DNA of 64,000 bases from an uncultured SAR116 cluster alpha proteobacterium (GTDB lineage Bacteria; Pseudomonadota; Alphaproteobacteria; Puniceispirillales; Puniceispirillaceae): NCBI GenBank assembly GCA_902518965.1, contig CABYIQ010000002.1:62001-126000 (forward strand). Reading direction: 5' to 3'. The notes beneath the pieces are model-generated. The model was not told the origin of the DNA. It made no database searches and worked only from the letters and a program-made list of their open reading frames with translations. Shown in pieces: positions 520 through 53,486 of the stretch. Within the stretch, counting starts at the first letter, position 1, and each line of letters begins with the position of its first letter. Made by a program: the position numbers and the translations under genes.

Positions 520-536
520 GACAGGCCTCATCTTTC

Positions 537-1601: not shown

Positions 1602-1620
1602 TACCATCCCTCATCTATCT

Positions 1621-6970: not shown

Positions 6971-8890
6971 TCAGGTATTATTTGATGATTGATTATAATA
7001 ATAATCAACTATTTTGTTTTTAGCTTGAAAATCAGGTACGAGACCAGAAATTATCTGGTGTGCTAGCCCAACTTCATTTTTTTCAATCGCAGACCGTAGC
7101 TGGCTGATCTCATCAACCAAACGCTCCCAATCTAAATGACTCTCCTTGGCCCGTATTATTCTATTATGTAAGGTGGTTTCGCTATTATTTGAAATCAAAA
7201 GCTCTTCAAAAAGCTTTTCTCCAGGCCTCAATGACCCAATCTGAATTTCAATATCGCCATTCGGATTTGACTCGGTCTTCACAGTCAGGCCAGACAACTG
7301 GATCATTCTTCTAGCAAGTTCAATAATTTTTACCGGCTTGCCCATGTCCAACACAAAAACGTCACCTCCTTTAGCCATAGCTCCCGCTTGAATAACCAAT
7401 TGAGAGGCCTCTGGAATAGTCATAAAAAAGCGTTCAATGTCAGGATGTGTAATTGTTAAAGGTCCGCCATGTCTTATCTGCTCCCGGAATTTAGGTACAA
7501 CTGAACCCGATGAGCCGAGCACATTTCCAAAACGAACCATCGATAAAATACATTTTTTTTGTTCTTTAGAAAGCGCTTGCAAAATCATCTCAGAGATTCT
7601 TTTGCTTGCCCCCATCACGCTAGTTGGTCTAACCGCCTTATCAGTGCTTATGAGTACTAAGTTTTTAATCCCATGCTCGATTGCAGATTGAACAACATTC
7701 AAGGTTCCAAAAATGTTGTTCTTTACACCCTCAAGAAAATTATGTTCAACCAATGGCACATGCTTATAAGCAGCGGCGTGATAAATAATATTTGGCTTCC
7801 ATGCCGAAATGATGGTTGAAATTTTGCACTTATCCTGAACAGACACGAGCAAAGGAATGATTTTTGATTGTTTTGAAATTGTCTCTAGTTCGCTATGAAT
7901 GTGATATAAAGAAAATTCACTATGGTCTATTAAAAGTAAACATTTTGGTTCTAAGGCAATTATTTGCCTACATAACTCTGAGCCAATAGACCCACCCGCC
8001 CCTGTAACCATAACAACACTATTAGTAGAATATTTTTCTAACAGTTCTTTTTTTGGTGTAATCGCATCGCGCCCTAGCAAATCATCAATTTCTAAATCAA
8101 CAACTTCGGATACACTAAAGTTACCTCCAGCAATTTCCACAAAGCTAGGAATCGTGCGAACAGACACCTTGAAGTTTTTTAGTTTCTGAATAATTTCATT
8201 TCTTTTAGAGCGGTCGATACGGGGTAAGGCTAATAAAATAGTATCGATTTTTAATTGTGCGACCAAAGTCTCCAGTTCATCGGGGTCATGCACCTTTAAT
8301 TGACCAATAAATTGTCCCTGGAGACTATCATCATCGTCTAAAAAACCTAAAATATCCATCCCATCACTGCTATGCATCGCAGAAGCTAATTGTTGACCAG
8401 AAGATCCAGCTCCGTAAATCAAAGCAGTGGTGATTCCCTTTTTATATTTTGGGTGAATGTGCATTGACCCGAGCCATAGTTTTGCCGTTAATCTTGCGGA
8501 ACACACCAACAAGGACAATAGAAGTGGCTGAATGATTCCTATAGTTCTCGGGGTTTCAGCTATCCCAATGAACATAACAACGGACGCAAAGGGAACCGAA
8601 TAGATGATAGTGGACCTTATAATGAGGAGAAGGGAATTTGAATCGCCATACCTAAAAATCGACCGATAAACGCCACAGAATAAATATATGGGTAGAACCA
8701 GAAGTATTGAGAGAAAAACTACCGTAAGCTGGCTTGCGCTGAATGTTCCGAACTCACCTAAGCGCAAATAAAATGAAAGCCAAGCGCTAACGACACAAAG
8801 ACTAGCGTCCACCATTATCACTATCAAAGTTTTGGCAAACCTAGGAAGAGCAAGAAGGGTTTTTGAAATGACTATTGGTTCACGAGTCAT
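6971..8890 (-). CDS. Membrane UDP-GlcNAc 4,6-dehydratase, WbpM/PglF type
   Basis: Inner-membrane nucleotide-sugar dehydratase of the long FlaA1/WbpM/PglF/CapD family (639 aa). Four N-terminal membrane segments (about residues 18-135) precede a CoA-binding-like Rossmann domain (AGSSGQQLA, about 161) and the catalytic SDR domain with TGAGGSIGSE (296-305). The usual SDR tyrosine is replaced by methionine (Met426-x3-Lys430 in SVMGASK), the Ser-Met-Lys signature of enzymes that retain C5 configuration. The product would be UDP-2-acetamido-4-keto-2,4,6-trideoxy-glucose, feeding bacillosamine-type sugars. A PglE/PglD/PglC-like set lies 42 kb away at 51051-53486. The gene is convergent with pntB and divergent from the next gene. 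Confidence 0.9.
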   Translation of the reverse strand: MTREPIVISKTLLALPRFAKTLIVIMVDASLCVVSAWLSFYLRLGEFGTFSASQLTVVFLSILLVLPIYLFCGVYRSIFRYGDSNSLLLIIRSTIIYSVPFASVVMFIGIAETPRTIGIIQPLLLSLLVCSARLTAKLWLGSMHIHPKYKKGITTALIYGAGSSGQQLASAMHSSDGMDILGFLDDDDSLQGQFIGQLKVHDPDELETLVAQLKIDTILLALPRIDRSKRNEIIQKLKNFKVSVRTIPSFVEIAGGNFSVSEVVDLEIDDLLGRDAITPKKELLEKYSTNSVVMVTGAGGSIGSELCRQIIALEPKCLLLIDHSEFSLYHIHSELETISKQSKIIPLLVSVQDKCKISTIISAWKPNIIYHAAAYKHVPLVEHNFLEGVKNNIFGTLNVVQSAIEHGIKNLVLISTDKAVRPTSVMGASKRISEMILQALSKEQKKCILSMVRFGNVLGSSGSVVPKFREQIRHGGPLTITHPDIERFFMTIPEASQLVIQAGAMAKGGDVFVLDMGKPVKIIELARRMIQLSGLTVKTESNPNGDIEIQIGSLRPGEKLFEELLISNNSETTLHNRIIRAKESHLDWERLVDEISQLRSAIEKNEVGLAHQIISGLVPDFQAKNKIVDYYYNQSSNNT

Positions 8891-15963: not shown

Positions 15964-16090
15964 TGGTTTAGTCAAAATTTAAAAACACTTCTTCAATCCA
16001 TTTTTTTATTCATTAGAATTTAAGCTAACTGACAGCAGTGGTTTCAAAATATATTAACTTACAAATTAAAAAATTTATTTGGAGAATAAT

Positions 16091-17760: not shown

Positions 17761-18401
17761 CTTCGCTGTTGGTGGAAGCCAGCACAACATATATAAAGTT
17801 TGAGCAGCAAAGGTTTCCTTTATGGAATATTGATGAGCATCTTGATTATCTTTCAGAATTTGATTTCACAGATGTGATAATATGCAGTGGAAAAGCCGGG
17901 GCCCTGTTGGAATTTAAATTAGAACACTTCGTTAATTATGCCGCCGGTATAGGTTGGTCACATGTTAAAATGACACCTCGACTATTTGACTATGGCTACT
18001 CAAAAATTTTTTTTGGGGGCAGTAATAGACCGCTACCTAACAATGAGGAATATAAAATTTTTTGCGATTTGCTAAAAATGTATGGAAGTTCATCTTTTGG
18101 CCTCAATGTCCATTTTAAAGACAAAAAAAAGTTAAAACAAAATAAAGACTTGCTAGATCATTTTTCTGAAATAAACATTATAGATGAGTTTTTACAATTG
18201 ACGTTTGATAAAGCTGCAGCCGAAAATTTAGTAAAAAAAATTGATAATTTTGGAAATCCAAACAATAACGAATTTAACTTGATAGCACCAAAAAAAACTT
18301 GGGAGTTCATTAACAAAAAATCTAAGATAAACCTCAATTATGTCAATTATTGTGAACATGCAATTGGTACTACAGTGAAATGCAATGCTCAAAATGTTTA
18401 A
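17742..18401 (+). CDS. Unrecognised protein within the amidation module
   Basis: 219-aa protein that I do not recognise. It overlaps the HisH-like gene before it by 19 bases and the WbpG-like gene after it by 22 bases, so it is firmly embedded in the module and takes the position a HisF partner would have. The sequence has alternating hydrophobic strands and helices. A stretch around SGKAGALLEF followed by VKMTPRLFDYG is faintly like the GGEP region of radical-SAM TIM barrels, but there is no CxxxCxxC cluster, so that resemblance is only a hint. The start is a TTG at 17742, and a later TTG near 17769 is possible. Confidence 0.75.
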   Translation: MGFRKIASLLVEASTTYIKFEQQRFPLWNIDEHLDYLSEFDFTDVIICSGKAGALLEFKLEHFVNYAAGIGWSHVKMTPRLFDYGYSKIFFGGSNRPLPNNEEYKIFCDLLKMYGSSSFGLNVHFKDKKKLKQNKDLLDHFSEINIIDEFLQLTFDKAAAENLVKKIDNFGNPNNNEFNLIAPKKTWEFINKKSKINLNYVNYCEHAIGTTVKCNAQNV

Positions 18402-19549
18402 TCAGTGATAGTCATCCATTTGGGGTTTTCTTTGATGCTAATGGAATTTGCTCAGGATGTAATGCGTTCAATAACAGACGGAATGCTCTGCCACTTTGGA
18501 ATGACAGTTCTAGTCAGTCGAGGCTCAAACACAGATTTCTAGAAAATTTCCAAGAAGTCCCTGACAAAGCAATCGTCCCATTCGAACCAGATGGAGAAAC
18601 TTGGTTCGTGTTAGAAACTCTGAACGACCTCAGTATTCAACCCGTTGTTGTGTACTTTAACACTCAGTACGCTGACTTTAAATATTTCGAAATGTTATCA
18701 GTATGTCAGGAAAATTTTGACTGTGACTTCTTAGGTTTTTCAATTCCTCAGGAATTAATCAAGTGGTGTATCGCTGAAGAGTTAGCTTGTGGACTTGGAC
18801 ACGGAAGAAAATTAGAAATTTTTGGAAGGTACATATCTTGTTTATTTGCAGCCGAAAAATTGAATATTCACCATGTATTTTCAGGTCCAAATCAACAATC
18901 CGAAATTGTTGGCAATCATAATTATGTAGTAGCAAATCAGTTAAAATTGCCTGCAATTCTAAAATTTGTGACCGGAGGACCACTCCTACCTCAAGTGCAG
19001 CAAGCCCTGAATAGTAACGGTTCAGCATTTACAACACGCTTCAGCGCTAAATTCGCAAATTACATGTTAAACAAGATACATTGGCATCACTTGAGTGACT
19101 ATATTTTTTGGGATAGCCAAAACATCAATAATTTTTTTGGTAAAAAGTTTAAAGTTAAGCCAAGGGATGTTAATGGCTACGCTGAGTGCTGGCAGGCATC
19201 TTCATCCGCACTTAAACTTGAATATTTTGACTTAATCCGAATAATGATAACGGGTCACTCGAAAATAGAGAGTTATCTCTCTAGGGATATACGTTTTGGT
19301 CGAATTGACAAATTTGGTGCTGAAGCAGCACTGAAACGTTACCTTCAAAAAGAGTGGGATTTATTGGGGTTTTCAAAATTTATGGGTATAGATGCTGATG
19401 ATGTGCTTCATGGGTTGGATTTGATGAACAAGTCCAAGAGACTGCGATATCATCCATCAAACTTCAAGCGCAGACCATCCTCATATTCTATTTCTCACCA
19501 CCAAGTCCTCTTTCCGCGAGCGTCTAAATTACAAATAAAAGAGGTTTAA
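18380..19549 (+). CDS. WbpG-family paralogue lacking the PP-loop
   Basis: 389 aa. The N-terminus is a clear WbpG/WbuX zinc ribbon (Cys3, Cys6, Cys24, Cys27 with the family spacing FDANGICSGC). The next strand should carry SGGxDS. Aligned with copies at 23707 and 32148, that motif is replaced by EPDGETW (69-75), with loss of the ATP-pyrophosphate loop. The fold seems kept (VVVYFNTQY in place of LVLHVDAGW, VFSGPNQQSE for the second nucleotide region). It is therefore probably a non-ATP-using scaffold, sugar-binding partner or altered enzyme. The ATG overlaps the previous gene and the next gene begins directly after the stop. Confidence 0.8.
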   Translation: MQCSKCLISDSHPFGVFFDANGICSGCNAFNNRRNALPLWNDSSSQSRLKHRFLENFQEVPDKAIVPFEPDGETWFVLETLNDLSIQPVVVYFNTQYADFKYFEMLSVCQENFDCDFLGFSIPQELIKWCIAEELACGLGHGRKLEIFGRYISCLFAAEKLNIHHVFSGPNQQSEIVGNHNYVVANQLKLPAILKFVTGGPLLPQVQQALNSNGSAFTTRFSAKFANYMLNKIHWHHLSDYIFWDSQNINNFFGKKFKVKPRDVNGYAECWQASSSALKLEYFDLIRIMITGHSKIESYLSRDIRFGRIDKFGAEAALKRYLQKEWDLLGFSKFMGIDADDVLHGLDLMNKSKRLRYHPSNFKRRPSSYSISHHQVLFPRASKLQIKEV

Positions 19550-30447: not shown

Positions 30448-30756
30448 GTGAATTCATACTTAAAGAACGCAGACAACTATGGGATCTAAAGATATTGTTT
30501 TAAAAAAAGTTTTCTGTGATGTGTCAATTAATGTCCAAAATGTCTCTAGTCTTCAGCCTTTTGAGAGTTGCTTCAGTAAGCATAAGCTTTTGCCAAAACT
30601 CATGAATAATCAGTAATAATAAACAGCAATTAAATGACAAAAACCCTTCTAGCATTGCTTATAGGTATGAATTTGGTAGATGATCCTTTGGCTCTCGGGT
30701 ATGAATATCACATGTGTTTTTAGATCTTGGCTCAGAAAGTGGCTGTGGATAAATTT

Positions 30757-31377
30757 ATGAGCGAGAAAAAGGTTGGCATTCTAGATGTGGGTCTCGGTAA
30801 CGCTGGGTCCGTTGAACGCATGCTCAGCAAGGCTGGCGGGATTGGCGCGCGGATAACAGACCCAAACGACCTCAATGATGTAAGCGGCTTAATAATTCCA
30901 GGTGTGGGTAGTTTTGATCCAGCGATGGTAAGAATACGAGAAGCGGGATTTGAGCAAGCAATTTACAAGATAATCGATAACACAAATGTTCCTGTGTTAG
31001 GCATTTGCCTTGGAATGCATCTTTTGTGCAATTCAAGTGAAGAAGGAAATCTGAATGGCCTCGGCGTTGTGGATGCTAAAGTGAGAGATTTGAAACGTTT
31101 TGCCTGTGGTTTACCAACTCCTAATATGGGTTGGAGAGAAGTAGCGGTGACTTCCCTAAATCCTTTGCTTGAGGAGGGAAGCAAACAAAGGTTTTATTTC
31201 GTACATTCCTATTACGTCGATATGCCAGAAAACGAATTCCAGATTTTTCAGTCGAGTTATGGCTTTGACTTTTGCTGCGGCTTTAAAATTGGCAAGGTTT
31301 TAGGAGTTCAGTTTCACCCAGAAAAAAGTCATAAATATGGTCTAAATTTTTTTAAAAAATTCGTTAAAATGTTATGA
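30757..31377 (+). CDS. HisH-like class I glutaminase, copy 2
   Basis: Glutaminase subunit homologous to HisH (imidazole glycerol phosphate synthase), here feeding ammonia to a sugar amidotransferase. GILDVGLGNAGSVERML start, IIPGVGSFDPAM, nucleophile LGICLGMHLL (Cys present but the usual Gln after GM is His), TPNMGWREV, and VQFHPEKS with catalytic His/Glu. I choose ATG 30757; an in-frame TTG at 30727 adds ten unconserved residues. It overlaps the HisF-like gene by 4 bases and the trio continues into WbpG at 32148. Confidence 0.88.
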   Translation: MSEKKVGILDVGLGNAGSVERMLSKAGGIGARITDPNDLNDVSGLIIPGVGSFDPAMVRIREAGFEQAIYKIIDNTNVPVLGICLGMHLLCNSSEEGNLNGLGVVDAKVRDLKRFACGLPTPNMGWREVAVTSLNPLLEEGSKQRFYFVHSYYVDMPENEFQIFQSSYGFDFCCGFKIGKVLGVQFHPEKSHKYGLNFFKKFVKML

Positions 31378-32135
31378 GTATCGTGCCGCGTGTTATCCCC
31401 GTGTTGTTGCTGAGTCAGCATCGGTTTGTTAAAACACAGAAATTCAGATCACCAATTTATATTGGTGACCCGATAAACACTATACGTATATTTAACGAAA
31501 AAGAAGTTGACGAGATAATTATCATTGATATTGACGCAAGCAAGCAATCTAAAGCTCCAGACTTTAAATTTATTGACGATCTTGCAGCTGAGTGTTTCAT
31601 GCCTTTGACATACGGAGGCGGTGTTAAGTCAATTGAACATGCTAAACAGTTATTCAATTTAGGTATTGAAAAAATAAGTGTTCAATCTGAGTTCAGAAGG
31701 CGACCTGAATTCGTTGCTGAACTGTCAGATCGTTTCGGTAAACAAAGTGTAATTGCGTCTATTGACGTTAAGGCTAATATCTGGGGCCAAAAAAAAATTT
31801 ATTACCCTGAAAAAAAGAAAATTAGTTCTAGCCAGCTAGAGGATGTAATTCAGAATTATGAGCAATTAGGTGCTGGTGAAATTCTGATAAACTCTGTTGA
31901 CCGAGATGGAACATTAATGGGCCCCGATTTGGAGGTTGTTCGACGATGTACTTCTGTGAGTAGCATCCCCATTACGGCGATAGGTGGCATTTCATCAATG
32001 CAAGATATTGTTGACGCTTGGAAGGCTGGAGCCAACGGAATTGGAGCGGGCTCCTTTTTTGTTTTTCACGGCCCTCACCGGGCAGTCTTGATTACCTATC
32101 CCAAAAGAGAAGATTTGGAAGCTCATTTCATTTAG
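31374..32135 (+). CDS. HisF-like ammonia-channelling partner, copy A
   Basis: 253-aa TIM-barrel homologous to HisF. It keeps EIIIIDIDASK, PLTYGGGV, ASIDVKAN, GAGEILINSVDRDGTLMGPD and AIGGI. The first catalytic Asp of true HisF (LDV in the IIPCLDV motif) is replaced: VIPVLLLSQHRFVK. The cyclase reaction of histidine synthesis is thus unlikely. In O-antigen clusters such proteins work with HisH and WbpG, presumably as the docking and ammonia tunnel. It overlaps HisH by 4 bases and is 12 bases before wbpG copy 4. Confidence 0.88.
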   Translation: MSIVPRVIPVLLLSQHRFVKTQKFRSPIYIGDPINTIRIFNEKEVDEIIIIDIDASKQSKAPDFKFIDDLAAECFMPLTYGGGVKSIEHAKQLFNLGIEKISVQSEFRRRPEFVAELSDRFGKQSVIASIDVKANIWGQKKIYYPEKKKISSSQLEDVIQNYEQLGAGEILINSVDRDGTLMGPDLEVVRRCTSVSSIPITAIGGISSMQDIVDAWKAGANGIGAGSFFVFHGPHRAVLITYPKREDLEAHFI

Positions 32136-32147
32136 GTAAAATTATAG

Positions 32148-33335
32148 ATGTCACAACATAGTAACCCAAATCAAAATAAACAAAATACATGCTCCCGTTG
32201 TGTAATGGACACATCTGATCCAAACATTAAATTTGACGAGCAAGGGGTTTGCAATCATTGCCATTCCTTTGAGAAGGTTACCCAGAAGTATTGGTTTCCA
32301 AACAGTGAAGGGCTAGTGAAACTTGACCAAATAGCTGAGAGCATCAAGTCTGAAAGATTGGGGCTTAAATATGATGTGCTAATGGGCCTAAGCGGAGGTG
32401 TCGATAGTTCCTATCTTGCATTGAAGATGAAGGAATATGGACTGAGTGTACTAGCTGTGCATGTTGATGCGGGTTGGAATAGTGAAATGGCGGTCTCAAA
32501 TATCGAGCTAGTGGTAAGTTCGTGTGGATTTGATTTGAAGACTGTTGTTTTGGACTGGGATGAGGTCCGAGATTTGCAACTTGCTTATTTTCAATCTGGA
32601 GTAGCCAATCAAGATGTACCGCAAGATCACGCGTTTTTCGCGAATTTGTTTTACGTCGCAAAAAAAGAAGGCATCCGGCACATAGTGTCAGGGGGCAATA
32701 TAGCCACAGAATCCATTTTCCCTTCTGGATGGCATTGTGATGCAATGGATAGTGCAAACCTTAAAGACATACAAAACAAATTTGGAAGTGTGAAGTTAAA
32801 AAATTATAAGGTTGTCAATTGGTTTGATTACTGGATTAATCTTCCATATATCAAAAAAATTACCACGATAAGGCCTCTCGATTATCTTGACTATAACAGA
32901 GAAAAAGCCATCGAAGAGCTTCAGAAAATTGGTTACAAACCCTATGGAAATAAACATGGAGAGTCACGATTTACTCGTTTTTTTCAAAACTATTTTCTGG
33001 TGAAAAAATACGGCTATGATAAGCGGCGACCACATTTCTCAAGTCTAATTATGTCTGGCCAAATGTCTCGTAATGAAGCACTGGAAAAGCTTCAGCAACC
33101 CGCTTACGAAAATAACTCATTGATGATTGAAGATATCAGCTATGTCTGCAAAAAGTTAAAGATAACAGAAAGTGAGCTTCACGGTTTTATTGATAACACG
33201 AATAGATCATATACTGACTTTGCTAATTGGGATGCAAAAAATAAAATTTTAACTAATACATTACGTGCGTGTTCTAAACTGAAAAGTAGACTAAAATATC
33301 TTACTTCACCACATGAAGTAATTAAAAATGAATAA
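32148..33335 (+). CDS. N-acetyl sugar amidotransferase (WbpG family), copy 4
   Basis: 395-aa PP-loop enzyme. Zinc ribbon CSRCVMDTSDPNIKFDEQ...CNHC, PP-loop GLSGGVDSSY, VHVDAGWNSE, QSGVANQDVPQDH, and C-terminal GESRFTRFFQNYFLVKKYGYDKRRPH. Completes the HisH-HisF-WbpG trio that in Pseudomonas O-antigens turns a sugar acetamido group into an acetamidino group. Closest relative in the window is copy 3 at 23707. It overlaps the next glycosyltransferase by 8 bases. Confidence 0.9.
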   Translation: MSQHSNPNQNKQNTCSRCVMDTSDPNIKFDEQGVCNHCHSFEKVTQKYWFPNSEGLVKLDQIAESIKSERLGLKYDVLMGLSGGVDSSYLALKMKEYGLSVLAVHVDAGWNSEMAVSNIELVVSSCGFDLKTVVLDWDEVRDLQLAYFQSGVANQDVPQDHAFFANLFYVAKKEGIRHIVSGGNIATESIFPSGWHCDAMDSANLKDIQNKFGSVKLKNYKVVNWFDYWINLPYIKKITTIRPLDYLDYNREKAIEELQKIGYKPYGNKHGESRFTRFFQNYFLVKKYGYDKRRPHFSSLIMSGQMSRNEALEKLQQPAYENNSLMIEDISYVCKKLKITESELHGFIDNTNRSYTDFANWDAKNKILTNTLRACSKLKSRLKYLTSPHEVIKNE

Positions 33336-34485
33336 TTTGATACTGCATATAAGCCACACCGACATAACCCAAGACTCCAGAATTCTGAAACAAATAAGAG
33401 TTCTAGAGAACGCAGATGAGTTAGAATGCTGTGGAATTGGTCTTAAATCTCAAGAGGAAGCTGTTTTTGGAGCTAAGAATATTGCCTCTAACATTGACAG
33501 CCTCGATCTTTTAATTAAACCAACTAAAAGTTTTCAGGGTGTAATTCGGTACATTTTGGCGCTTTTGAGTTTGTTGGAACTTACTCTACGATTTCTCTAT
33601 AGTGGCTTGAACAAAAAACCTGATGTGGTGCACTGTCATGATGCAATATGTCTTATTGCTGCTGTTTTAATAAAAAAATTTTCAGGGTGTCTCTTGGTTT
33701 ATGATGCTCATGAATTGGAGTCGGACAGAAACGGGCAGACAAAACTTTTTTCGAGGATAACCTTATGGATTGAGAAATCATGTTGGCATTCAGTTGATCT
33801 TTTTGTAACGGTGAGCCGTTCTATTGACGATTGGTACCAGGAAAAATTAGGAACCAAAAAGAGTATAATTGTCTTGAATTCGCCTGAGGTTATCGATAGC
33901 TGTGGCGAATCAAACGGGACATATTTAAAAACAAAATTTAAGCTAGAAGATAAACGTGCACTTTTTATATATGTCGGGTTGCTTTCAAAAGGGCGTGGTG
34001 TTGATCTTTTACTGGATCTTTTTTCAACTGAAATACACGAAGCTGATTTAGTTTTTTTAGGCTACGGTGAGTTAAAAAATCAGGTTCTTGAAAGTGTTAA
34101 ACAAAACAAAAACATTTTTTTTCATCCTCCTGTGGAACATAATAAAGTTGTGGAAATTGCGCGCTCTGCTGACTGCGGCTTGTGTTTTATCGAAGACGTT
34201 TCATTAAGTGATTTCTATTGTTTGCCAAATAAACTGTTTGAATACGCGTTTGCTGGCGTTTACGTGCTTGCATCAAATTTCCCAGAAATTTCAAACGTAG
34301 TTAAAAAATATCGTCTAGGCACGACTGTAAGCCTCGAGAGAAATGATTTAAAGTCAGAAATTATGAGAATTGTAGTGAATCGGCCAAAGTTAAAATCCTC
34401 AAACCTAATAGAGCTCAGTTGGGCATATCAAGGAGAAATTCTTTTGGCGAGCTATAGAGAAATACTGTTAGCCAGAAAACGGTGA
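33328..34485 (+). CDS. GT4-family glycosyltransferase
   Basis: 385-aa GT-B glycosyltransferase. N-terminal LILHISHTDITQDSRI with VVHCHDAICLIAAV and VYDAHELESD; C-terminal domain with LFIYVGLLSKGRGVDLLL, DLVFLGYGE and LPNKLFEYAFAGVYVLAS, the acidic E-x7-like donor site of GT4. It probably adds one residue of the repeat unit on the cytoplasmic side. It is coupled to wbpG copy 4 by overlap and followed 13 bases later by the fusion gene. Donor and acceptor unknown. Confidence 0.85.
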   Translation: MNNLILHISHTDITQDSRILKQIRVLENADELECCGIGLKSQEEAVFGAKNIASNIDSLDLLIKPTKSFQGVIRYILALLSLLELTLRFLYSGLNKKPDVVHCHDAICLIAAVLIKKFSGCLLVYDAHELESDRNGQTKLFSRITLWIEKSCWHSVDLFVTVSRSIDDWYQEKLGTKKSIIVLNSPEVIDSCGESNGTYLKTKFKLEDKRALFIYVGLLSKGRGVDLLLDLFSTEIHEADLVFLGYGELKNQVLESVKQNKNIFFHPPVEHNKVVEIARSADCGLCFIEDVSLSDFYCLPNKLFEYAFAGVYVLASNFPEISNVVKKYRLGTTVSLERNDLKSEIMRIVVNRPKLKSSNLIELSWAYQGEILLASYREILLARKR

Positions 34486-34498
34486 GAGGAAGCGTTGG

Positions 34499-36328
34499 AT
34501 GTGTGGCATTTTTGGTGTGGTTTCTCGGGATGGCCGCTTAGATAAAAATGATTTAAGTTTGTTGGTAAAGGCTTCGAGACAAAGAGGGCGAGACTCGAGC
34601 GGCTTGGCCTTTAAAGCAAAGGGCTCAAAATTATTATCTGTTGAGAGAGCAGATTATGACATCTATAAATTGCTCTCAAATGTGAAAAAAGAAAATTTGG
34701 AATTAGTCCTTGGACATAGCCGACTAATCACCAACAGTCACACTGATAACCAGCCCGTTGTTAAGGAAGATATTTGTGTTTTTCACAATGGGATAATTGT
34801 GAACACCAAAAAAGTATGGAAACAAGTAAAAGCAACCCAAAATTTGGAAATTGACTCTGAAGTTCTTGTAGGGCTCACTGAAGAATTTCTATTATCGAAA
34901 TCTAATAAGTCGAAGATTTCGGAGCTAGGTAAATATATAATTGCTAGATGTGAGGGAGTAGTAGCGGCCGCAATATTAATTGGCCGACTTGGTAAACTAG
35001 TACTTTTCTCAAACAATGGAAGTTTATATTTTGGCAAAAATGAAAGAGGTACCTACTACGCTTCTGAAAAATTCCCACTCAAAAAAATTCAATGTGAAGA
35101 CATTGTTCAAGTTCGTGAGAATGCCATTGTTGTTGACATAGAAACTGAGACAGTAATCAAAGTTAATGACCATCAAGTAAGTCGAAAAAATCTGGTTCCA
35201 GCCCTAGGTAACCTCTCCCAACAAGAAAAAAAGCTCGTTTTTGAGCCACACTCACTCAAGCGCTGCGCTAAGTGTATACTACCCCAAACTATGCCATTTA
35301 TAACTTTTGATGCGAATGGCATTTGCAATTACTGTAATAACTACGAAGTGCGAAACAATCCCAAACCGAAGGATCTTCTATATAAGTCGCTGGAGAGATT
35401 TCGGCGCCATCAGGGTGCTGAATGTATTGTACCTTTCTCTGGTGGCCGAGATAGTTGCTATGGGCTACATTTAATAGTAAATGAGCTAAAATTAGAGCCC
35501 ATCACCTACACATACGATTGGGGCATGGTTACTGACCTCGGGCGAAGAAATATTTCTCGCATGTGTTCCAACCTTGGAGTTGAAAATATCATTGTCGCCG
35601 CAGATATCGGATTAAAGAGGAGGAACATCAATAAAAATTTACGTGCTTGGCTTCGTTCCCCTAATTTAGGCATGGTAAGCATTCTTACAGCCGGAGATAA
35701 ACATTTTTTTAAACACGTCGAGACAATCAAAAGACAAACGGGAATATCGCTAAATCTTTGGGGTATAAATCCGTTGGAAGTTACTCATTTTAAATCTGGT
35801 TTTCTCGGCATAAAACCGGATTTTGAAGAAAAAATGGTTTACTCCAATGGCGCCATTAAGCAAATGCGATACCAATTACTTAGGTTGTGTGCAATGAGCA
35901 AAAGTTTAGGGTATTTCAACACTTCAATTTGGGATACGTTATCCGGAGAATATTATCGCAGCTTCACACAGAAATCTGATTATTTTCATATTTTTGATTA
36001 TTGGCGCTGGGATGAGGCAGATATCAATAAAACATTAAAACTCTATGATTGGGAGATGGCGCCAGACACCCAAACGACTTGGCGTATCGGTGATGGGACC
36101 GCAGCATTTTACAACTATATTTATTATACTGTTGCTGGTTTCACCGAGCATGACACTTTTCGTAGCAACCAAATTCGTGAGGGCGACATTAGTCGAGAGG
36201 AAGCTTTGCGCTTGGTTGCAGATGAAAACAGGCCACGATATCCGAATATAAAATGGTACCTTGACGCTGTAGATATAGAGTTTGAAGAAGCCGTCAAGGT
36301 AGTCAATGCCATGCCAAGAATGTATTAA
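34499..36328 (+). CDS. Fusion: class II glutaminase + WbpG-type PP-loop amidotransferase
   Basis: 609-aa two-domain protein. Residues 1 to about 230 are an Ntn-hydrolase (class II) glutaminase: Cys2 nucleophile after Met in MCGIFGVVS, RQRGRDSSG, GHSRLIT and the oxyanion FHNGII. Residues about 250-609 are a WbpG-family enzyme: ribbon cysteines 256, 259, 276, 279, then PP-loop FSGGRDSC (313-320), LNLWGINPLE, and a Trp/Tyr-rich C-terminus. The architecture parallels asparagine synthetase but with the sugar-amidation synthase. It would supply its own ammonia, so no HisH/HisF is needed. GAGAGGAAG precedes the ATG. It lies between two glycosyltransferases. Confidence 0.88.
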   Translation: MCGIFGVVSRDGRLDKNDLSLLVKASRQRGRDSSGLAFKAKGSKLLSVERADYDIYKLLSNVKKENLELVLGHSRLITNSHTDNQPVVKEDICVFHNGIIVNTKKVWKQVKATQNLEIDSEVLVGLTEEFLLSKSNKSKISELGKYIIARCEGVVAAAILIGRLGKLVLFSNNGSLYFGKNERGTYYASEKFPLKKIQCEDIVQVRENAIVVDIETETVIKVNDHQVSRKNLVPALGNLSQQEKKLVFEPHSLKRCAKCILPQTMPFITFDANGICNYCNNYEVRNNPKPKDLLYKSLERFRRHQGAECIVPFSGGRDSCYGLHLIVNELKLEPITYTYDWGMVTDLGRRNISRMCSNLGVENIIVAADIGLKRRNINKNLRAWLRSPNLGMVSILTAGDKHFFKHVETIKRQTGISLNLWGINPLEVTHFKSGFLGIKPDFEEKMVYSNGAIKQMRYQLLRLCAMSKSLGYFNTSIWDTLSGEYYRSFTQKSDYFHIFDYWRWDEADINKTLKLYDWEMAPDTQTTWRIGDGTAAFYNYIYYTVAGFTEHDTFRSNQIREGDISREEALRLVADENRPRYPNIKWYLDAVDIEFEEAVKVVNAMPRMY

Positions 36329-36330
36329 AA

Positions 36331-37548
36331 TTGGCAACATTTTGGTATGTATCAAAGTATGTGTCTCCGCCGGCGGGGTCTTCTGTTGGCTCGAGGGGCT
36401 TTTATTTGCTTCGAGAAATTGCAGCGTTGGATAACCGCTGTGTAATTGTTACCTCAGACTCCAATGTGTTGGCAAAAACTCCGCAGTTCCAAGGTAAAAT
36501 GTTGGACCAACAAATCGATGGCATGCACATAAGGTGGCTCAGTACATTAAAATTCAAAAAAACTAAATCTTTAAGGCGAATTTTAAGCTGGTTGGATTTT
36601 GAACTTAAATTGTTTTTATTTGGTTCAAGGGGTTTGCCCAAGCCAGATGCCGTAATTGTCTCAAGTTTATCACTATTGACTATTCTCAATGGATTTTTAC
36701 TTCGACGGAAATACGGATGCAAGATTATATTTGAGATCAGAGATATATGGCCTTTGACACTGACAGCAGAAGGAAAATATTCTAAGCTTAATCCATTAAT
36801 AATTATTCTTAGCTTTATAGAGTTTATTGGGTACAAGTATTGTGACGAAATCGTTGGCACAATGCCAAATTTGCAACAACACGTTGATAAAGTTTTAAAT
36901 TATAAAAGGCATGTGCATTGCATTCCAATAGGATTTGACACTGATGCTTACAAATACCTGAATCAAAAACGGCCAAGCGATGTTATTCCGAAGATACCAA
37001 AGGGTAAATTTTTAATCGGATATATCGGGTCAATAGGTGTTTCAAATGCTCTCGATCAGCTTTTTCAGGCCGCTCAGCAAACCATAGATGAAGAACAAAT
37101 TCACTACCTAGTTGTTGGGACTGGCGACTTGGAGCATTCATACAAACTTAAATACCAAAATCTAAGTAATGTGACTTTTCATCCAAAAATATCAAAAGAG
37201 CAAGTTCCACAAGTTTTGGAGAAATGCGACGTCCTTTATTTTGCAACCCACCCTTCAGAAGTCTGGAATTATGGTCAATCGTTGAATAAACTTGTAGAAT
37301 ATATGCTGGCAGGAAAGCCGATAATTGGCTCATATACCGGTTATCAAAGCATGCTCAATGAGGCAAATTGTGGCGTTTTTATTCCGTCTGGTGATGTAAG
37401 TGCACTAGTCGCGCAGATTGTTGCATTTTCAAAATTTCAAAAAACTGAACTTTCAAGGATGGGGGATCGCGGAAAAAGCTGGATAAATCAACACAGAACA
37501 TACCGCAAACTTGGTTTGCGGTATCTGAATGAGGTTCTCTTAAAATGA
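36331..37548 (+). CDS. GT4-family glycosyltransferase, WbuB-like
   Basis: 405-aa GT-B enzyme. ATFWYVSKYVSPPAGSSVGSR start, IFEIRDIWPLTL, CIPIGFDTDAYKYL, IGYIGSIGVSNALDQL, and LNKLVEYMLAGKPIIGS at the donor site. These are typical of WbuB/WcaI-like transferases acting on FucNAc- or QuiNAc-type sugars. The start is the TTG at 36331, two bases after the fusion-gene stop, because the homologous opening lies right there. About 175 bases without a recognised gene follow. Confidence 0.85.
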   Translation: MATFWYVSKYVSPPAGSSVGSRGFYLLREIAALDNRCVIVTSDSNVLAKTPQFQGKMLDQQIDGMHIRWLSTLKFKKTKSLRRILSWLDFELKLFLFGSRGLPKPDAVIVSSLSLLTILNGFLLRRKYGCKIIFEIRDIWPLTLTAEGKYSKLNPLIIILSFIEFIGYKYCDEIVGTMPNLQQHVDKVLNYKRHVHCIPIGFDTDAYKYLNQKRPSDVIPKIPKGKFLIGYIGSIGVSNALDQLFQAAQQTIDEEQIHYLVVGTGDLEHSYKLKYQNLSNVTFHPKISKEQVPQVLEKCDVLYFATHPSEVWNYGQSLNKLVEYMLAGKPIIGSYTGYQSMLNEANCGVFIPSGDVSALVAQIVAFSKFQKTELSRMGDRGKSWINQHRTYRKLGLRYLNEVLLK

Positions 37549-38994: not shown

Positions 38995-40881
38995 TCATTT
39001 AAAATTAATAAACGCCATTATCTGCTCTACTGCTTGTTCGACAGACTTTTCTGTGGTTTTGATGTGAAGCTCAGGTGTTAATGGAGGCTCGTATGGACTT
39101 CCTATACCTGTAAAGTTTGGAATTTCACCACGCCGTGCTTTTTTATATAGACCTTTAGTATCACGCAATTCAGCTACTTCAAGTGGCGTATCAATAAAAA
39201 TCTCAAAAAACTCCTCTTCCTCAAACAGCTGACGCACCATGTCGCGCTCTGCTTTAAAAGGTGAAATAAAGGCTGTAAGCACTACAACACCGGCATCAAC
39301 CATTAGCTTGGCTACCTCACCAGCTCGTCTGATATTCTCTACCCGGTCTGCAGCTGTAAATCCAAGGTCGCTATTTAGGCCATGTCGTACATTATCGCCA
39401 TCAAGTAGGTACGTGCGTATACCGCGTGAGTGAAGTATCTTTTCTAGCGCATTAGCGATGGATGATTTTCCAGAGCCTGATAAACCCGTAAACCATAGTA
39501 CTTGGCTATTATGCCCGTTAAGTTTTCGTCTAGATATTTTATTGATCTCGAGTTTCTGACCGTGAATATTTGTGGCACGCCGGAGTGCAAATTCAATCAT
39601 GCCAGCAGCAACAGTTTGGTTGCTCATTCGATCAATTAATATAAAAGCACCCATCGATGGACATTTGTGATAACTTTCAAATGCAATTGGGCGGTCTGTT
39701 TTCAATGTAATTACATAAAGTTCATTGAACTGCAGTTCTGCCGCAGAAAGATTCTCCAAGTTATTTATGTTGACCTTGTGTTTAATAGATGTAATCTGCG
39801 CGTTTACTAACGAAGCTCCCAGTTTCAAGAAAAAGCTTCGGCCGACATATCCTGAATATCTATCCATCCAAACAAGTTTCACCTCAAATTGGTCTGAGAC
39901 CTCGCACGGTGCGTCTTTAGCTACTATTACATCGCCACGCGACACATCGATCTCCTTATCGAGAGTCAATGTCACAGCCCTATCATGCTGAGCTGATTGT
40001 AAATGTTCTTTGAAAAGAATAATCTCTTTAATGGTCGCAGTTTCACTTGAGGGTAAAACACGAATTTTTTGGCCAACATTTACTGTCCCAGCCTCAACTG
40101 TTCCAGAAAAGCCTCTAAAGTCTGTATTTGAACGAGTTACCCATTGAACTGGAAATCTAAGCGGATACTTAATTCTAGAATTATTCGTATCAACAATTTC
40201 CAAAAACCCAAGAAGTGTCGGACCTTGATACCAGCTCATATAGCTCGACCGCTTAATAATGTTATCTCCCTTCAAGGCAGATATTGGAATCGCTAATGTC
40301 TGCTCGAATTGGAGTGCATCTGCAAAATTTTTATATTCCTCCGAAATTTGATCAAAAACTTCCTTACTGTATTCAACTAAATCCATTTTGTTGATTGCAA
40401 TCACAACCTTTCGAATGCCAAGCGTTGAGCAGATCAGCGAATGACGCCGGGTCTGCGTTAACACACCTTGGCGAGCATCAATCAAAATTACTGCTACGTC
40501 TGCTGTTGATGCTCCGGTTACCATGTTGCGCGTATATTGTTCATGCCCAGGAGTGTCTGCAACTATAAATTTCCTCTGGTCTGTGGCAAAAAATCGGTAA
40601 GCAACGTCGATTGTAATACCTTGCTCTCGTTCAGAAGTAAGACCATCTACTAAGAGGGCAAAATCGATGCTGTCGCCTTGGGTTCTCGCCTTTTTTGAGT
40701 CAAGTTGAAGATAGGTTAACTGATCATCAAAGATCGATTGAGCTTCAAAGAGCATTCTGCCAATTAGCGTGCTCTTGCCATCATCAACACTGCCGCAAGT
40801 AATAAAGCGCAAGGTGCCTAGGTTTGCTTGCGCTTCAAGGTACTGCTTCACCTTATCGACAGCTTCCAATGCTAGTGTCAT
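38995..40881 (-). CDS. cysN: Sulfate adenylyltransferase subunit 1 / APS kinase (CysNC)
   Basis: Bifunctional sulfate-activating enzyme. The N-terminal GTPase (CysN) has [24 protein letters not shown] and NKMDLVEYS. Then comes beta-barrel material, and a C-terminal APS kinase (CysC) with [17 protein letters not shown] and [11 protein letters not shown]. It makes APS and then PAPS together with CysD. At 628 aa it is the NodQ-like fused form. Its ATG overlaps the CysD stop by 1 base, giving cysD-cysNC transcription. No sulfotransferase was recognised in the window, so the PAPS may serve assimilation or glycan sulfation elsewhere. Confidence 0.95.
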
Positions 40882-42392
40882 CAGAAGTAACCCTCTTGCT
40901 TTTTTCTCTCCATTGAAGCACTGGAGTCACTGTCAATAGCTCGTCCTTGCCGTTCACTGGTCCGTGCGCAAAGCAGCTCTAAAATAATGCTCGCTAGGTC
41001 ATCCGCTTCGGACTCAATAGCACCTGTTAAGGGGTAGCACCCGAGAGTGCGAAAACGGATCTTTTTCAGTTGAATAATCTCGTCTTTATCGAGTGGTAGC
41101 CGATCATCATCCACCATCATCAGCATACCATTGCGTTTGATTACAGGACGCTCTGATGCAAAGTAAAGTGGCACAATTGGGATTTGCTCACGATAAATGT
41201 ATTGCCAGATGTCGAGTTCAGTCCAGTTGGAGAGCGGAAATACACGGATTGAGTCACCTGAGTTTTTCCTACCATTATAGAGATTCCAAAGTTCTGGGCG
41301 TTGGTTTTTTGGATCCCAGCGATGGGATGAGTTCCTGAAAGAAAAGATGCGCTCCTTTGCGCGACTCTTTTCTTCATCGCGCCGTGCTCCTCCAAAAGCC
41401 ACATCAAACTTGTAATGATCGAGCGCCATTTTTAGTGACTGGGTCTTCATTATGTCGGTATGCAACGCCGAACCATGATCAAACGGATTGATATTATTCG
41501 ACACGCCCTCAGGATTTATGTGCACTAGGAGTTCCATCTTAGATTCTTGCGCAATATAATCTCTGAAGTCATACATCGTTTGGAACTTCCAAAGCGTATC
41601 AACGTGAAGCATAGGGAAAGGTGGTGGGCTTGGATAAAAGGCCTTGCGCGCCAAGTGCAACAACACAGATGAGTCTTTGCCCACTGAATATAACATTACA
41701 GGATTATCTGCATCCGCCATCACTTCACGGAAAATATGCATAGCCTCTGCTTCAAGCCTGTCTAGGTGCGTGAACTGATTTTTGATGTTCACATTCATAT
41801 TTGGACTAACGCTTTGCAAAATATCGACCTGTCCATGTGAATAAACCTCAAGCGTTACGGTGAGCGACCCTACAGGGAGTCTTACTACACGTTGGCTTCC
41901 TAATTTTCTAACAAGTTGCCGCAATAGTTCGACGATTGCCCCTGATGGAATCATCACGACATCTTTTTTTTCAAAAGCACAGAGTTTGATAAGAGCGGCC
42001 TGAAGTGAACCCACACGGTCACTGCTTAAATTGAGGTTCACCCATCGACGACCACCGCGAGCATCATTAAGGGCCAAAAAATGCTCTTCGTTGTTATCAG
42101 ATGAAAGCATCTGAGCAAACAGGATGAGTTTTCTCTTTTTGCGAGCAGAGCCAACTAATTGATCAAAAACCAAGTGTTTGGCTGGTCGACCATGTTCATC
42201 AGTGAGGGAGGAATAGTTAAGTTGCTCAAATTTCAGTGTGCTTCTATTGATTTCTCGTTCAGCAGCTTTTCTGCTAGCATTATCACATTTTTGGAATAAA
42301 GCTTCAGCTACAGTGCTAACTGTTAAGACAGCAGGGAGAGGGCTTGAATAGAACAACTGGTAAAATTTGTCTTTTTTTTCACATTTTACCAT
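40881..42392 (-). CDS. cysD: Sulfate adenylyltransferase subunit 2 CysD with 200-aa N-terminal extension
   Basis: ATP sulfurylase small subunit. Residues about 205-503 are a standard Cys[20 protein letters not shown]-loop-like YSVGKDSSV (235-243), [31 protein letters not shown] and the C-terminal [20 protein letters not shown]. The first 200 residues are not part of usual CysD (about 300 aa) and I do not recognise them. The ATG at 42392 has an AGGT element close upstream. The internal Met199 (41798) has none, so the long form is favoured. Shares an operon with cysNC. Confidence 0.93.
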
Positions 42393-50861: not shown

Positions 50862-51050
50862 TTTAGTAACAGGAATTCTGTTAAAACTCTCTTTAGGAGG
50901 CAAGTGAATGGGGAGCAATAATTCTCACAACACTATGTTCTCGTTTGTTTTATGGAAATTCATGCTTTGCAATTCCAGTATTTTTTATATCTCAAATGAT
51001 GAGACAAATTGTCTGGACCATATAACGAAATTCAAAAACCGTGTCCCGTA

Positions 51051-51656
51051 ATGAATTATAAATTATATAAAAGAATTTTTGACTTCACATTGGCCCTGTT
51101 AATCTTAGCTTTGTTCAGTTGGCTATTATTCGCAATCAGCATACTTGTATGGCTTCAACTCGGAAGGCCAATTCTTTTTAGCCAAAGGCGACCCGGGCAG
51201 GGTGGAAAAATATTCAATTTATATAAGTTTCGAACAATGACGGAAGCAAGTGATCTAAGTGGTAAAAATTTGCCCGATGAGTCAAGGTTGACAAGTTTTG
51301 GGCAATGGCTCCGTTCTACAAGCTTAGATGAATTACCAGAACTCTGGAATGTCATTCGGGGCGAAATGAGTTTGGTTGGCCCGAGGCCTCTTCTCGAGGA
51401 ATATCTTCACATTTACTCGAAAGAACAATTTAAACGACACTCGGTTTTGCCTGGCATCACTGGCTGGGCACAAATTAATGGAAGGAATGAAATTTCTTGG
51501 GAACAAAAGTTTGAGTTAGACTTATGGTACGTTAAACATGCGTCTCTACTTTTAGATTTAAGAATTACACTCATGACTGTGGTCCTAGTAATCAAGAAAA
51601 AGGGGATAAATAGCCCACACCATTCGACTGCTAAGAAATTTACTGGAGATGAATGA
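51051..51656 (+). CDS. Initiating sugar-1-phosphate transferase, PglC-like
   Basis: Small monotopic phosphoglycosyl transferase: transfers a UDP-sugar phosphate to undecaprenyl phosphate. One membrane-inserted N-terminal helix (FTLALLILALFSWLLFAISI), then GRPILFSQRRPGQGGKIF, YKFRTMTEAS, the catalytic Asp-Glu in TSLDELPELWNVIRGEMSLVGPRP and GITGWAQINGRNEI. About 201 aa from ATG 51051. An in-frame TTG at 51009 lies without homology before it. Neighbours resembling PglD and PglE suggest the donor is a bacillosamine-type UDP-sugar. Confidence 0.9.
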   Translation: MNYKLYKRIFDFTLALLILALFSWLLFAISILVWLQLGRPILFSQRRPGQGGKIFNLYKFRTMTEASDLSGKNLPDESRLTSFGQWLRSTSLDELPELWNVIRGEMSLVGPRPLLEEYLHIYSKEQFKRHSVLPGITGWAQINGRNEISWEQKFELDLWYVKHASLLLDLRITLMTVVLVIKKKGINSPHHSTAKKFTGDE

Positions 51657-51657
51657 G

Positions 51658-52260
51658 TTGAAAAGTTTAGCTATAATTGGGGCGGGAGGGCATAGCAAAG
51701 TTGTTGCTGAAGCCGCCATGTTGAGTGGATGGGAATCCGTCTCTTTTTTTGACGATAAAAAAGATGGTGAAACTCAGATTACTGGGAACTTAGATAAATT
51801 TTTCCAATTGAAAAATAAATTTAGCGGTGCTCACATAGCTATTGGCGATAACCATGTTAGAAAAAAACTCTTTGAGGCGCTTTCTGCAGACGGCGTTACT
51901 ATCAAAAGCATAATTCATCCGACTGCTATAGTGAGTAAAAATGTTTTAATCGCTGGCGGCACTATGATTTCTGCAGGAGCAATCATTAACTCAGGGGTAA
52001 ATATAGGAAAAGGTGTAATCATCAACACGGGTTCAATTATTGAACATGATTGTGTGATTAAAGACTTCTGTCATATAAGTCCAGGATGCTCACTCGGGGG
52101 AAAAACAGTGATATATGAATTGAGCTGGATTGGAATTGGCTCATCAGTCAAACATGACATTACTATAGGAAAACGAGTTACTATAGGTGCAGGTTCAGTT
52201 GTGATAAACGATATTCCATCTGAGTGCACGGCTTATGGCGTGCCTTGCGAAATAGCATAA
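51658..52260 (+). CDS. Sugar O/N-acyltransferase, PglD-like
   Basis: About 200-aa two-domain enzyme: N-terminal nucleotide-fold AIIGAGGHSKVVAEAA binding the UDP-amino sugar, then left-handed beta-helix hexapeptide repeats (GGTMISAGAIIN, GVNIGKGVIINTG, CVIKDFCHISPG) and the typical ending AGSVVINDIPSECTAYGVP. It would acetylate the 4-amino group made by a PglE-type aminotransferase. The TTG at 51658 has GGAG nine bases upstream and gives the PglD opening. The ATG at 51649 is alternative but overlaps the site. Confidence 0.87.
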   Translation: MKSLAIIGAGGHSKVVAEAAMLSGWESVSFFDDKKDGETQITGNLDKFFQLKNKFSGAHIAIGDNHVRKKLFEALSADGVTIKSIIHPTAIVSKNVLIAGGTMISAGAIINSGVNIGKGVIINTGSIIEHDCVIKDFCHISPGCSLGGKTVIYELSWIGIGSSVKHDITIGKRVTIGAGSVVINDIPSECTAYGVPCEIA

Positions 52261-52268
52261 AATAAATC

Positions 52269-53486
52269 TTGAAAGTAGCATTCATGGGAAAGACAGGATT
52301 TTCACCTTGGCCTAATTTTACAGAAGAAGAAGCCAAAGCAGTTTCGGAAGTTTTACTCTCGAATAGAGTGAACTATTGGACAGGGGAACACGTTGCTCTT
52401 TTCGAACGTGAATATGCTGAATTTATAGGAGTGAAATATGCTGTAGCATTGGCAAATGGCACCGTTGCTTTAGAGGCAGCTTTGAAGGCTTTAGCTGTTA
52501 AAGAGCGGGACGAAGTTATCGTTACCTCTAGATCCTTTTTTGCATCTGCATCAGCCATCAAGGCTGTTGGGGCTACACCAGTATTTGCAGATGTTGATTT
52601 AAATACACAAAATATTGATGTTGATTGCCTTGATGGTCTTCTTTCAAAAAACACTGCTGCAATCATTTGTGTCCACCTTGCGGGATGGCCATGTGACATG
52701 GACGAAATAATGCAATTTGCTGAAACAAACAAGTTGTCCGTGATCGAAGATTGTGCACAAGCACATGGAGCTGAATATAAGGGCAAAAAGGTTGGATCCA
52801 TTGGAGATGTAGGTTGCTGGTCTTTTTGCCAAGATAAAATCATCTCCACCGGTGGGGAAGGCGGGATGATTACCACTAATAATGCTGATATCTGGGAAAA
52901 AATTTGGTCCTACAAGGATCATGGAAAGGATTATGAATTAACTCTTAATTCAATGAGTGGTGGGGTTGACTTCAAATGGGTTCATAATTCCTTTGGAACA
53001 AACCTTAGAATGACAGAAATGCAAGCCGTTATAGGGAGAATTCAAACTCAAAAACTTCCCAAATGGAGCGATAAGCGGCGGGCGAACATAGCCAAAATTT
53101 ACAATGCCGCGGAAAAGCTTCCAGACATTCGAATTCCAAAATTGAGTTGTAAATCCTGTCGAGCCAAAGCCAGACAAAAAATGGCATGTAACTGCTTAAA
53201 TGCTGCCTATAAATGCTACCTCTTTGTTGATGGGAGCAGAGAACAAAGGGACGCGCTCATTTCAGAGATTAATAAGCAAGGAGTTCCATGTTTTAGCGGT
53301 TCTTGTCCAGAAATTTATTTAGAAAAAGCTTTCCAGAATACTGCAACGGAAACAATAGAGCGTTTTGAAAATGCCAAAAAACTTGGTGAGACCTCAATTA
53401 TGTTTCTTTGTCACCCTACCTTAACTGAAGAAGAAACTTCTTACATCTGTAAAACCTTTAAAGACGCATATGACACAATATTTTGA
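52269..53486 (+). CDS. DegT/DnrJ/EryC1 aminotransferase with cysteine-rich insert (PglE-like)
   Basis: 405-aa PLP enzyme of the sugar aminotransferase family: VIEDCAQAHGAEYKGKKVG, SFCQDKIISTGGEGG with internal aldimine Lys190, and NLRMTEMQAVIG. It sits after pglC/pglD-like genes, so it probably aminates a UDP-4-keto sugar made by the 6971 dehydratase. It could instead be the missing WbpE-type enzyme. A short insert has five cysteines at 294, 297, 307, 309 and 316 (SCKSC...CNC...C), which could bind metal and is not a family feature. The TTG at 52269 or ATG 52284 is the start. Confidence 0.87.
   Translation: MKVAFMGKTGFSPWPNFTEEEAKAVSEVLLSNRVNYWTGEHVALFEREYAEFIGVKYAVALANGTVALEAALKALAVKERDEVIVTSRSFFASASAIKAVGATPVFADVDLNTQNIDVDCLDGLLSKNTAAIICVHLAGWPCDMDEIMQFAETNKLSVIEDCAQAHGAEYKGKKVGSIGDVGCWSFCQDKIISTGGEGGMITTNNADIWEKIWSYKDHGKDYELTLNSMSGGVDFKWVHNSFGTNLRMTEMQAVIGRIQTQKLPKWSDKRRANIAKIYNAAEKLPDIRIPKLSCKSCRAKARQKMACNCLNAAYKCYLFVDGSREQRDALISEINKQGVPCFSGSCPEIYLEKAFQNTATETIERFENAKKLGETSIMFLCHPTLTEEETSYICKTFKDAYDTIF

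Follow-up and report, generated by a model that had tools for sequence, protein, structure and literature searches.

Amidino sugars are a source of positive charge in the coats of bacteria. Among the described systems, the WbuX/WbpG/LpNASAT family (TIGR03573; structure 8WEX) is usually found with HisH and HisF2. In its available part, the 2023 paper on the LpNASAT structure calls the structure and function of this family little known, and it deduces the use of ATP by WbpG/WbuX from the structure (PMC10607449).

Two other systems are architectural precedents for joining a class II glutaminase to a PP-loop synthetase in one chain. AsnB and WbpS (PGN_1234) carry the glutaminase N-terminally and the synthetase C-terminally; WbpS acts on a surface sugar and gives a carboxamide (PMC7468200, available part). 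Gat-QueC, from phage 9g and some archaea, has a class II glutaminase with a PP-loop synthetase and leads to an amidine, archaeosine, as far as the accessible text of PMC6884629 goes. A 2026 survey of the QueC family includes WbpG and mentions large multidomain relatives (PMC13329287); no mention of a class II glutaminase fusion was found in the part of it that was available. Work on pseudomonad tailocins treats O-antigen clusters (PMC8319346, in part).

This report concerns a gene for such a fusion protein in the window, i.e. the whole stretch of 64,000 nucleotides that was analysed (Table 1). Like WbuX/WbpG/LpNASAT, the fusion has a tetracysteine motif, an SGGxDS PP-loop, a C-terminal region around R566 and the same overall fold. 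Unlike them, it has its own class II glutaminase, falls below the TIGR03573 cut-off, forms a separate group in the tree and mostly occurs without HisH and HisF2. It differs from Gat-QueC in its PP-loop family (PF06508 in Gat-QueC) and in substrate, which is 7-deazaguanine there and not a sugar. From AsnB and WbpS it differs in that the synthetase halves do not align. The parallel with asparagine synthetase drawn in the first-pass annotation stands for the domain order, but the closer functional precedent is Gat-QueC, as an amidine maker (PMC6884629, accessible text). No description of the fusion was found in the open literature, a scope outside which most subscription papers lie, and none of its Pfam and NCBIfam matches is a dedicated family model; within these bounds, no earlier characterisation of the family came to light.

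Table 1. Features of the fusion gene and its surroundings in the window (upper rows), and family members with a decayed or missing glutaminase (last four rows; positions within the respective locus).
Feature	Position	Strand	Basis or remark
PglF-like 4,6-dehydratase	6971..8890	-	824 bits to neighbour profile
HisH, AglZ/HisF2 and stand-alone WbuX (classical three-protein amidating set)	30727..33335	+	just upstream of fusion
GTa, glycosyltransferase directly upstream of fusion	33328..34485	+	460 bits to GTa neighbour profile
Fusion gene, class II glutaminase + NASAT-like PP-loop amidotransferase	34499..36328	+	609 aa + stop, ATG start
Class II (Ntn) glutaminase domain, residues ~1-225	34499..35173	+	Pfam PF13537/PF13522; fold
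Cys2 codon, predicted N-terminal nucleophile after Met removal	34502..34504	+	aligns with N-terminal Cys of GlmS
NASAT/WbuX-like domain, residues 251-609	35249..36325	+	TIGR03573 at 254-597; 8WEX fold match
Tetracysteine motif C256, C259, C276, C279, predicted zinc site	35264..35335	+	motif CxxC-Xn-[GN]xCxxC, G274 included
PP-loop SGGRDS, residues 314-319, predicted ATP pyrophosphatase site	35438..35455	+	sequence motif
GTb, glycosyltransferase, commonest adjacent neighbour of fusion	36331..37548	+	555 bits to GTb neighbour profile
PglC-like initiating sugar-phosphate transferase	51009..51656	+	neighbour profile
PglD-like acetyltransferase	51649..52260	+	neighbour profile
PglE-like aminotransferase	52269..53486	+	neighbour profile
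L072, decayed glutaminase	187-1983		Cys2->Ser, R75->Gly, N97->Ser
L076, decayed glutaminase	10001-11815		Cys2->Pro, R75->Gly, N97->Asp, D119->Thr
L085, glutaminase missing	9974-11146		PP-loop half kept
L096, glutaminase missing	9992-11104		PP-loop half kept

The gene and the two halves of its product

The fusion gene starts 13 bases after the end of the upstream glycosyltransferase gene, with AGAGGAA 7 bases in front of its ATG, and its stop codon is followed after two bases by the start of the next glycosyltransferase gene. The frame directly opposite is packed with stops, and only one frame of at least 90 codons is listed there on the opposite strand (36035-36355, 106 aa). The open frame, together with conservation across phyla, rules out chance or artefact as its source. 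The first-pass annotation had read the product as an Ntn glutaminase joined to a PP-loop amidotransferase; Pfam, TIGR03573, motifs and fold confirm this, and the glutaminase motifs that it named are all there (Cys2, RGRDSSG at 29-35, GHSR at 72-75, HNG at 96-98). The AlphaFold model has a pLDDT of 92.4 and a pTM of 0.92. Aligned over the whole chain with AsnB, this model gives an rmsd above 20 Å in Foldseek; VIA-align matches 188 residues.

In the N-terminal half, both PF13537 (37 bits, cut-off 25) and PF13522 (36.3 bits, cut-off 27) are passed. GlmS is the best-scoring full-length NCBIfam model for this half (58–62 bits), with a match that is limited to residues 1-239 and, at 58 bits, does not reach the model's cut-off of 418.05. 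In a sequence alignment, Cys2, R75, N97-G98 and D119 coincide with catalytic or glutamine-binding residues of GlmS, which we take to be the N-terminal catalytic Cys (Cys2), the glutamine-binding Arg and Asp (R75 and D119) and the oxyanion Asn-Gly (N97-G98). Among 68 aligned members (the window and 67 loci, with some near-copies and partial, frame-broken or glutaminase-less rows left out), R75 and N97 are each kept in 66, D119 in 67 and G98 in all 68; Cys2 is kept in 66, a count that the search pattern MCGIFG and the choice of rows favour; the other four residues lie outside the effect of the pattern. The GATase_6/GATase_7 cut-offs, the N-terminal Cys and the Arg, Asn-Gly and Asp residues together mark this half as a predicted class II glutaminase domain.

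The fold of this half is consistent with the same assignment, the best PurF and GlmS chains giving Z scores of 22–24. Structures of EgtC are also among the matches (Z 17.4–17.5), and on that basis the Ntn domain could be an amide hydrolase of the EgtC kind: the PP-loop domain would make an intermediate, and the Ntn domain would strip a glutamyl or acyl group from it. PurF and GlmS outscore EgtC with their best chains, however, and R75 and D119, the counterparts of the Arg and Asp in GlmS, are kept; we hold such a hydrolase to be very improbable.

The C-terminal half is related to WbuX/WbpG. TIGR03573 matches residues 254-597 with E = 2.6e-35, and its 122.5 bits stay short of the cut-off of 203.2; for this reason, the fusion was filed as a related, separate family and not as a WbuX member. 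A profile of 43 fusion PP-loop halves aligned by hhalign to one of 38 stand-alone WbuX proteins gave a probability of 100 and E = 2.1e-57 over 356 columns with 18% identity. Residues fixed at 90% or more in both sets of rows include the four cysteines, SGG.DS, P334, N351, G547 and R566; one motif count behind the tetracysteine and PP-loop evidence covered the window and 67 loci whose protein starts with MCGI. Residues 251-609 of the model superimpose on the solved NASAT 8WEX with Z = 23.2 (311 residues, 4.2 Å), and zinc sits at the same tetracysteine motif in LpNASAT (PMC10607449, available part). The zinc-ribbon PP-loop half of WbpG type that had been proposed is supported by these matches. 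The match below the TIGR03573 cut-off and the low profile identity mean that the reaction of the fusion may have diverged from that of WbuX.

An asparagine synthetase identity of this half is rejected. The fusion protein has no match to PF00733 (Asn_synthase) at E ≤ 1, an AsnB model of NCBIfam touches residues 68-130 only, and the fusion PP-loop profile does not match the synthetase half of AsnB-type neighbours (hhalign probability 0.1), so that the assignment to the asparagine synthetases, against which the first-pass annotation had set its own, is not supported. The WbuX profile does match that AsnB profile (hhalign 95.1, E = 8e-9). QueC (PF06508) likewise has no match in the fusion protein at E ≤ 1.

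Family tree and distribution

PP-loop domains, 83 in all, were placed in a quick maximum-likelihood tree, where a branch with an SH-aLRT of 98 separates 43 of fusion type from 40 stand-alone WbuX proteins; L055 was left out for its masked zinc motif, and the placement of two very long rows (win_WbuX_18380 and win_WbuX_16079) is unsure. The kinship with WbpG thus holds as relatedness, but the fusion is a separate group beside WbuX and not a WbuX protein with an added domain. A class II glutaminase was seen in three of 65 WbuX-matching frames (from the WbuX loci, the window and four chosen relatives; the loci overlap and some genes were counted twice), and all three belong to the fusion family.

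Four members of the fusion group, at different places in the tree (supports 80–94, not starred), have lost the glutaminase by decay (L072, L076) or altogether (L085, L096). L072 and L076 have kept the PP-loop residues that were checked, indicating that the PP-loop half has value alone. No HisH was found in the flanks examined around any of the four (short for L072 and downstream of L096), so the glutaminase half is not always needed. These members lend some weight to the idea that this half is mainly structural or regulatory, with the PP-loop half using free ammonia or another glutaminase. The retention of R75, N97, G98 and D119 in nearly all of the 68 aligned members speaks against it, and we regard it as quite improbable for the family. 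A longer subfamily of about 672–683 aa (L082, L083, L086 and L088-L093) was also seen; GTb is near in two of nine, some flanks being short.

Other amidotransferase-type genes were noticed along the way. Six WbuX-type genes and two HisH/HisF2 pairs lie within 16079-47209 of the window, and these six are all the WbuX-type genes at E ≤ 0.001 in the 1.94-Mb (76% complete) assembly. Four genes overlap head to tail at 16079-19549 (+): one WbuX-like (170 bits), one weakly HisH-like (40 bits), one of 219 aa and another WbuX-like one (71 bits) in which no SGGxDS loop was seen. With NeuB/PseG-type genes beside them, they may encode an amidotransferase that is divergent or built of two subunits. Elsewhere, WbuX-like domains occur in very long frames of 1474 and 1873 aa (G001:C119:110877-111824 and G184:C22:1962-2897), and the plasmid matches H28 and H30 fall under features annotated as condensation-domain protein and non-ribosomal peptide synthetase, which together suggests NRPS-linked amidotransferases. 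The frame at 40881-42392 (-) of the window looks, by eye, like a CysD-type sulfate adenylyltransferase subunit with about 200 extra N-terminal residues.

The fusion is scattered but wide-ranging. A scan of 84,980 GTDB species genomes gave at least 289 relatives; the best 80 of these were analysed and form a floor, and 79 of them match over both halves (L059 and L084 with a broken frame, L047 cut by a contig end). The best 80 of 289 span 11 phyla by record title, many of the records being metagenome bins that are possibly mislabelled. In sampled whole genomes, with the window's own included, it occurs in four of 385 of the class, two of 136 of the order and three of 398 of the phylum. The other carrier in the order belongs to the same genus and its protein is 52% identical to that of the window, less than the 66% of a bin labelled Flavobacterium; judged from these identities, transfer of the gene between lineages is most likely.

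Full-length relatives were found on three of 72,556 plasmids, two of Agrobacterium (62%) and one of Solidesulfovibrio (39%). The names on the three records are hypothetical protein, glucosamine 6-phosphate synthetase and 7-cyano-7-deazaguanine synthase, so a scattered, wide-ranging step in surface-glycan synthesis is mis- or unannotated. Among the best 80 of 103 relatives in IMG/VR, L094 and L095 are full length, L096 has the PP-loop half only, and the remaining 77 match N-terminal residues only, reaching residue 286 at most. In 50,697 phage records, four matches were found and none covers 80% of the query. With so few full-length matches in either collection, a phage role of the gene is not supported.

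Gene neighbourhoods and the proposed reaction

Neighbours were counted, as gene starts within 12.5 kb at a threshold of 80 bits, for 54 fusion loci whose flanks reach 8 kb or more on each side; 52 came from the genome scan, L085 (without a glutaminase) and L076 (with a decayed one) among them, and two from plasmids. For comparison, 20 regions around the strongest WbuX hits were taken from the window's class only, some of them cut short where the contig ends. One of the 20, L219, shares its contig with a fusion and was removed, which left 19, among them L212, from another contig of a fusion-bearing genome. Since the loci are related and the control comes from one class, the contrasts between the two sets (Fisher tests) are descriptive.

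HisH is present in 10 of 54 fusion loci versus 18 of 19 stand-alone WbuX loci, and HisF2 in 11 of 54 versus 17 of 19. The partners typical of the WbuX family are thus both absent from 43 of the 54 fusion loci. As nine of the 10 HisH-bearing fusion loci also have a stand-alone WbuX, HisH mostly tracks WbuX and not the fusion; in the stretch examined, L036 (HisH and HisF2) and L033 (HisF2) have no stand-alone WbuX. In the window, HisH and HisF2 adjoin the stand-alone WbuX, and this three-gene set is read as separate from the fusion. Dependence of the fusion on the HisH and HisF2 next door is judged unlikely in view of the family-wide pattern. The claim that the fusion draws on a different source of ammonia, a class II glutaminase and not HisH, thereby gains indirect support.

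On the Agrobacterium plasmid, HisH and HisF2 lie about 13 kb from the fusion, with an annotated N-acetyl sugar amidotransferase 4.8 kb from HisH. L007 and L234 (Agrobacterium sp. RAC06 plasmid) show one surface-glycan cluster holding the fusion, two asnB genes, a formyltransferase and the set of HisH, HisF2 and N-acetyl sugar amidotransferase.

The recurrent neighbours of the fusion are of another kind. GTa lies within 2.5 kb upstream in 27 of 79 loci and GTb within 2.5 kb downstream in 42 of 84. GTb is more frequent near the fusion than in the control (35/54 vs 1/19), as are GTa (28/54 vs 0/19) and PglC (37/54 vs 1/19), although these same fusion loci supplied the GTa, GTb and Pgl profiles, which favours the fusion over the control; PglE is no different (34/54 vs 11/19). 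Independently of these profiles, GTb has relatives at E ≤ 1e-40 in three plasmid records, of which the best two are the fusion-carrying Agrobacterium plasmids. A Massilia plasmid with a GTb relative at 29% is nevertheless absent from the fusion matches. At E ≤ 1e-60, the only carrier of GTb among 385 genomes of the class is the one that the window comes from, a result that shows rarity and not linkage, because the three other fusion-bearing genomes of that sample are also without it. At E ≤ 1e-40, it is present in four of seven fusion-bearing genomes and absent from three. In the window, the fusion has this set of companions too, with GTa, GTb, PglC, PglD, PglE and PglF all present; its GTb has no match to solved structures at E ≤ 0.001.

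Genes for the synthesis of uronic acids are found near part of the fusions (WbpA in 13, WbpB in six and WbpD in 16 of the 54 loci), along with VimE-like genes in 10 and AsnB-type genes in 18. DUF7033 proteins were seen near the fusion at L028:4049-5455 and in nine other full-flank loci, and the one scanned against the VimE deacetylase model scored 160.8 bits, short of the cut-off of 440. WbpA, WbpB and WbpD genes are found in the window, and the AsnB neighbour profile detects no AsnB-type gene there, so the role of making a uronamide is vacant in it. The fusion could fill this role by amidating the carboxyl of a uronic acid, with no amidine formed, as the AsnB-like WbpS of Porphyromonas gingivalis does; for WbpS (PGN_1234), formation of a uronamide rests on a deletion mutant, according to the part of PMC7468200 that was available. 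Its synthetase half is WbuX-like, however, with no detected similarity to AsnB, and in the 18 loci where AsnB-type genes accompany the fusion the two roles look different. A uronamide-forming fusion is therefore unlikely in our judgement.

The reading that we favour, and regard as probable with a good measure of doubt, is that the fusion is a self-contained glutamine- and ATP-dependent sugar amidotransferase that gives an acetamidino sugar in a surface glycan. We infer the glutaminase and ATPase activities, the path of ammonia, the amidine product and the identity of the sugar as follows, the chemistry of the PP-loop half being taken from the account of WbpG/WbuX in the available part of PMC10607449. 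The Ntn domain would hydrolyse glutamine with Cys2, and the ammonia would pass inside the protein from this site to the C-terminal NASAT-like domain. There, the PP-loop would use ATP, giving AMP and PPi, to activate the N-acetyl carbonyl of an amino sugar, whose oxygen would be replaced by the nitrogen. The product would be an acetamidino sugar, a carboxamide being less likely. One fusion chain would in this way do the job of a stand-alone WbuX/WbpG with HisH, the glutaminase, and HisF2.

At the reducing end of the unit of a surface polysaccharide, GTb would most likely add the modified sugar beside one of bacillosamine type. There are known polysaccharides whose amidino sugar adjoins QuiNAc or a related 6-deoxy sugar (PMC3210612, in part); such neighbours would fit the GTb-Pgl setting, by an analogy that is suggestive only.

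A wider proposal, offered tentatively and more doubtful than not, is that the fusion represents a second, independent route to amidino sugars. A one-chain, channelled family without HisH and HisF2 would have been carried by gene transfer into 11 or more phyla, in a portable module GTa-fusion-GTb-PglC-PglD-PglE-PglF, and would provide a fixed, positively charged amidinated residue beside bacillosamine in otherwise variable surface glycans; in a few lineages, the glutaminase would have been lost afterwards.

The classical amidating system seems to need three proteins. In the fusion, glutaminase and synthetase share a single chain, so that one purified protein would suffice to assay the reaction and the transfer of ammonia. 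Its recurrent neighbours point to a glycan unit that is common across phyla. Scattered over many phyla and without a settled name, the fusion enzymes look like a self-contained alternative to the known three-protein machine.
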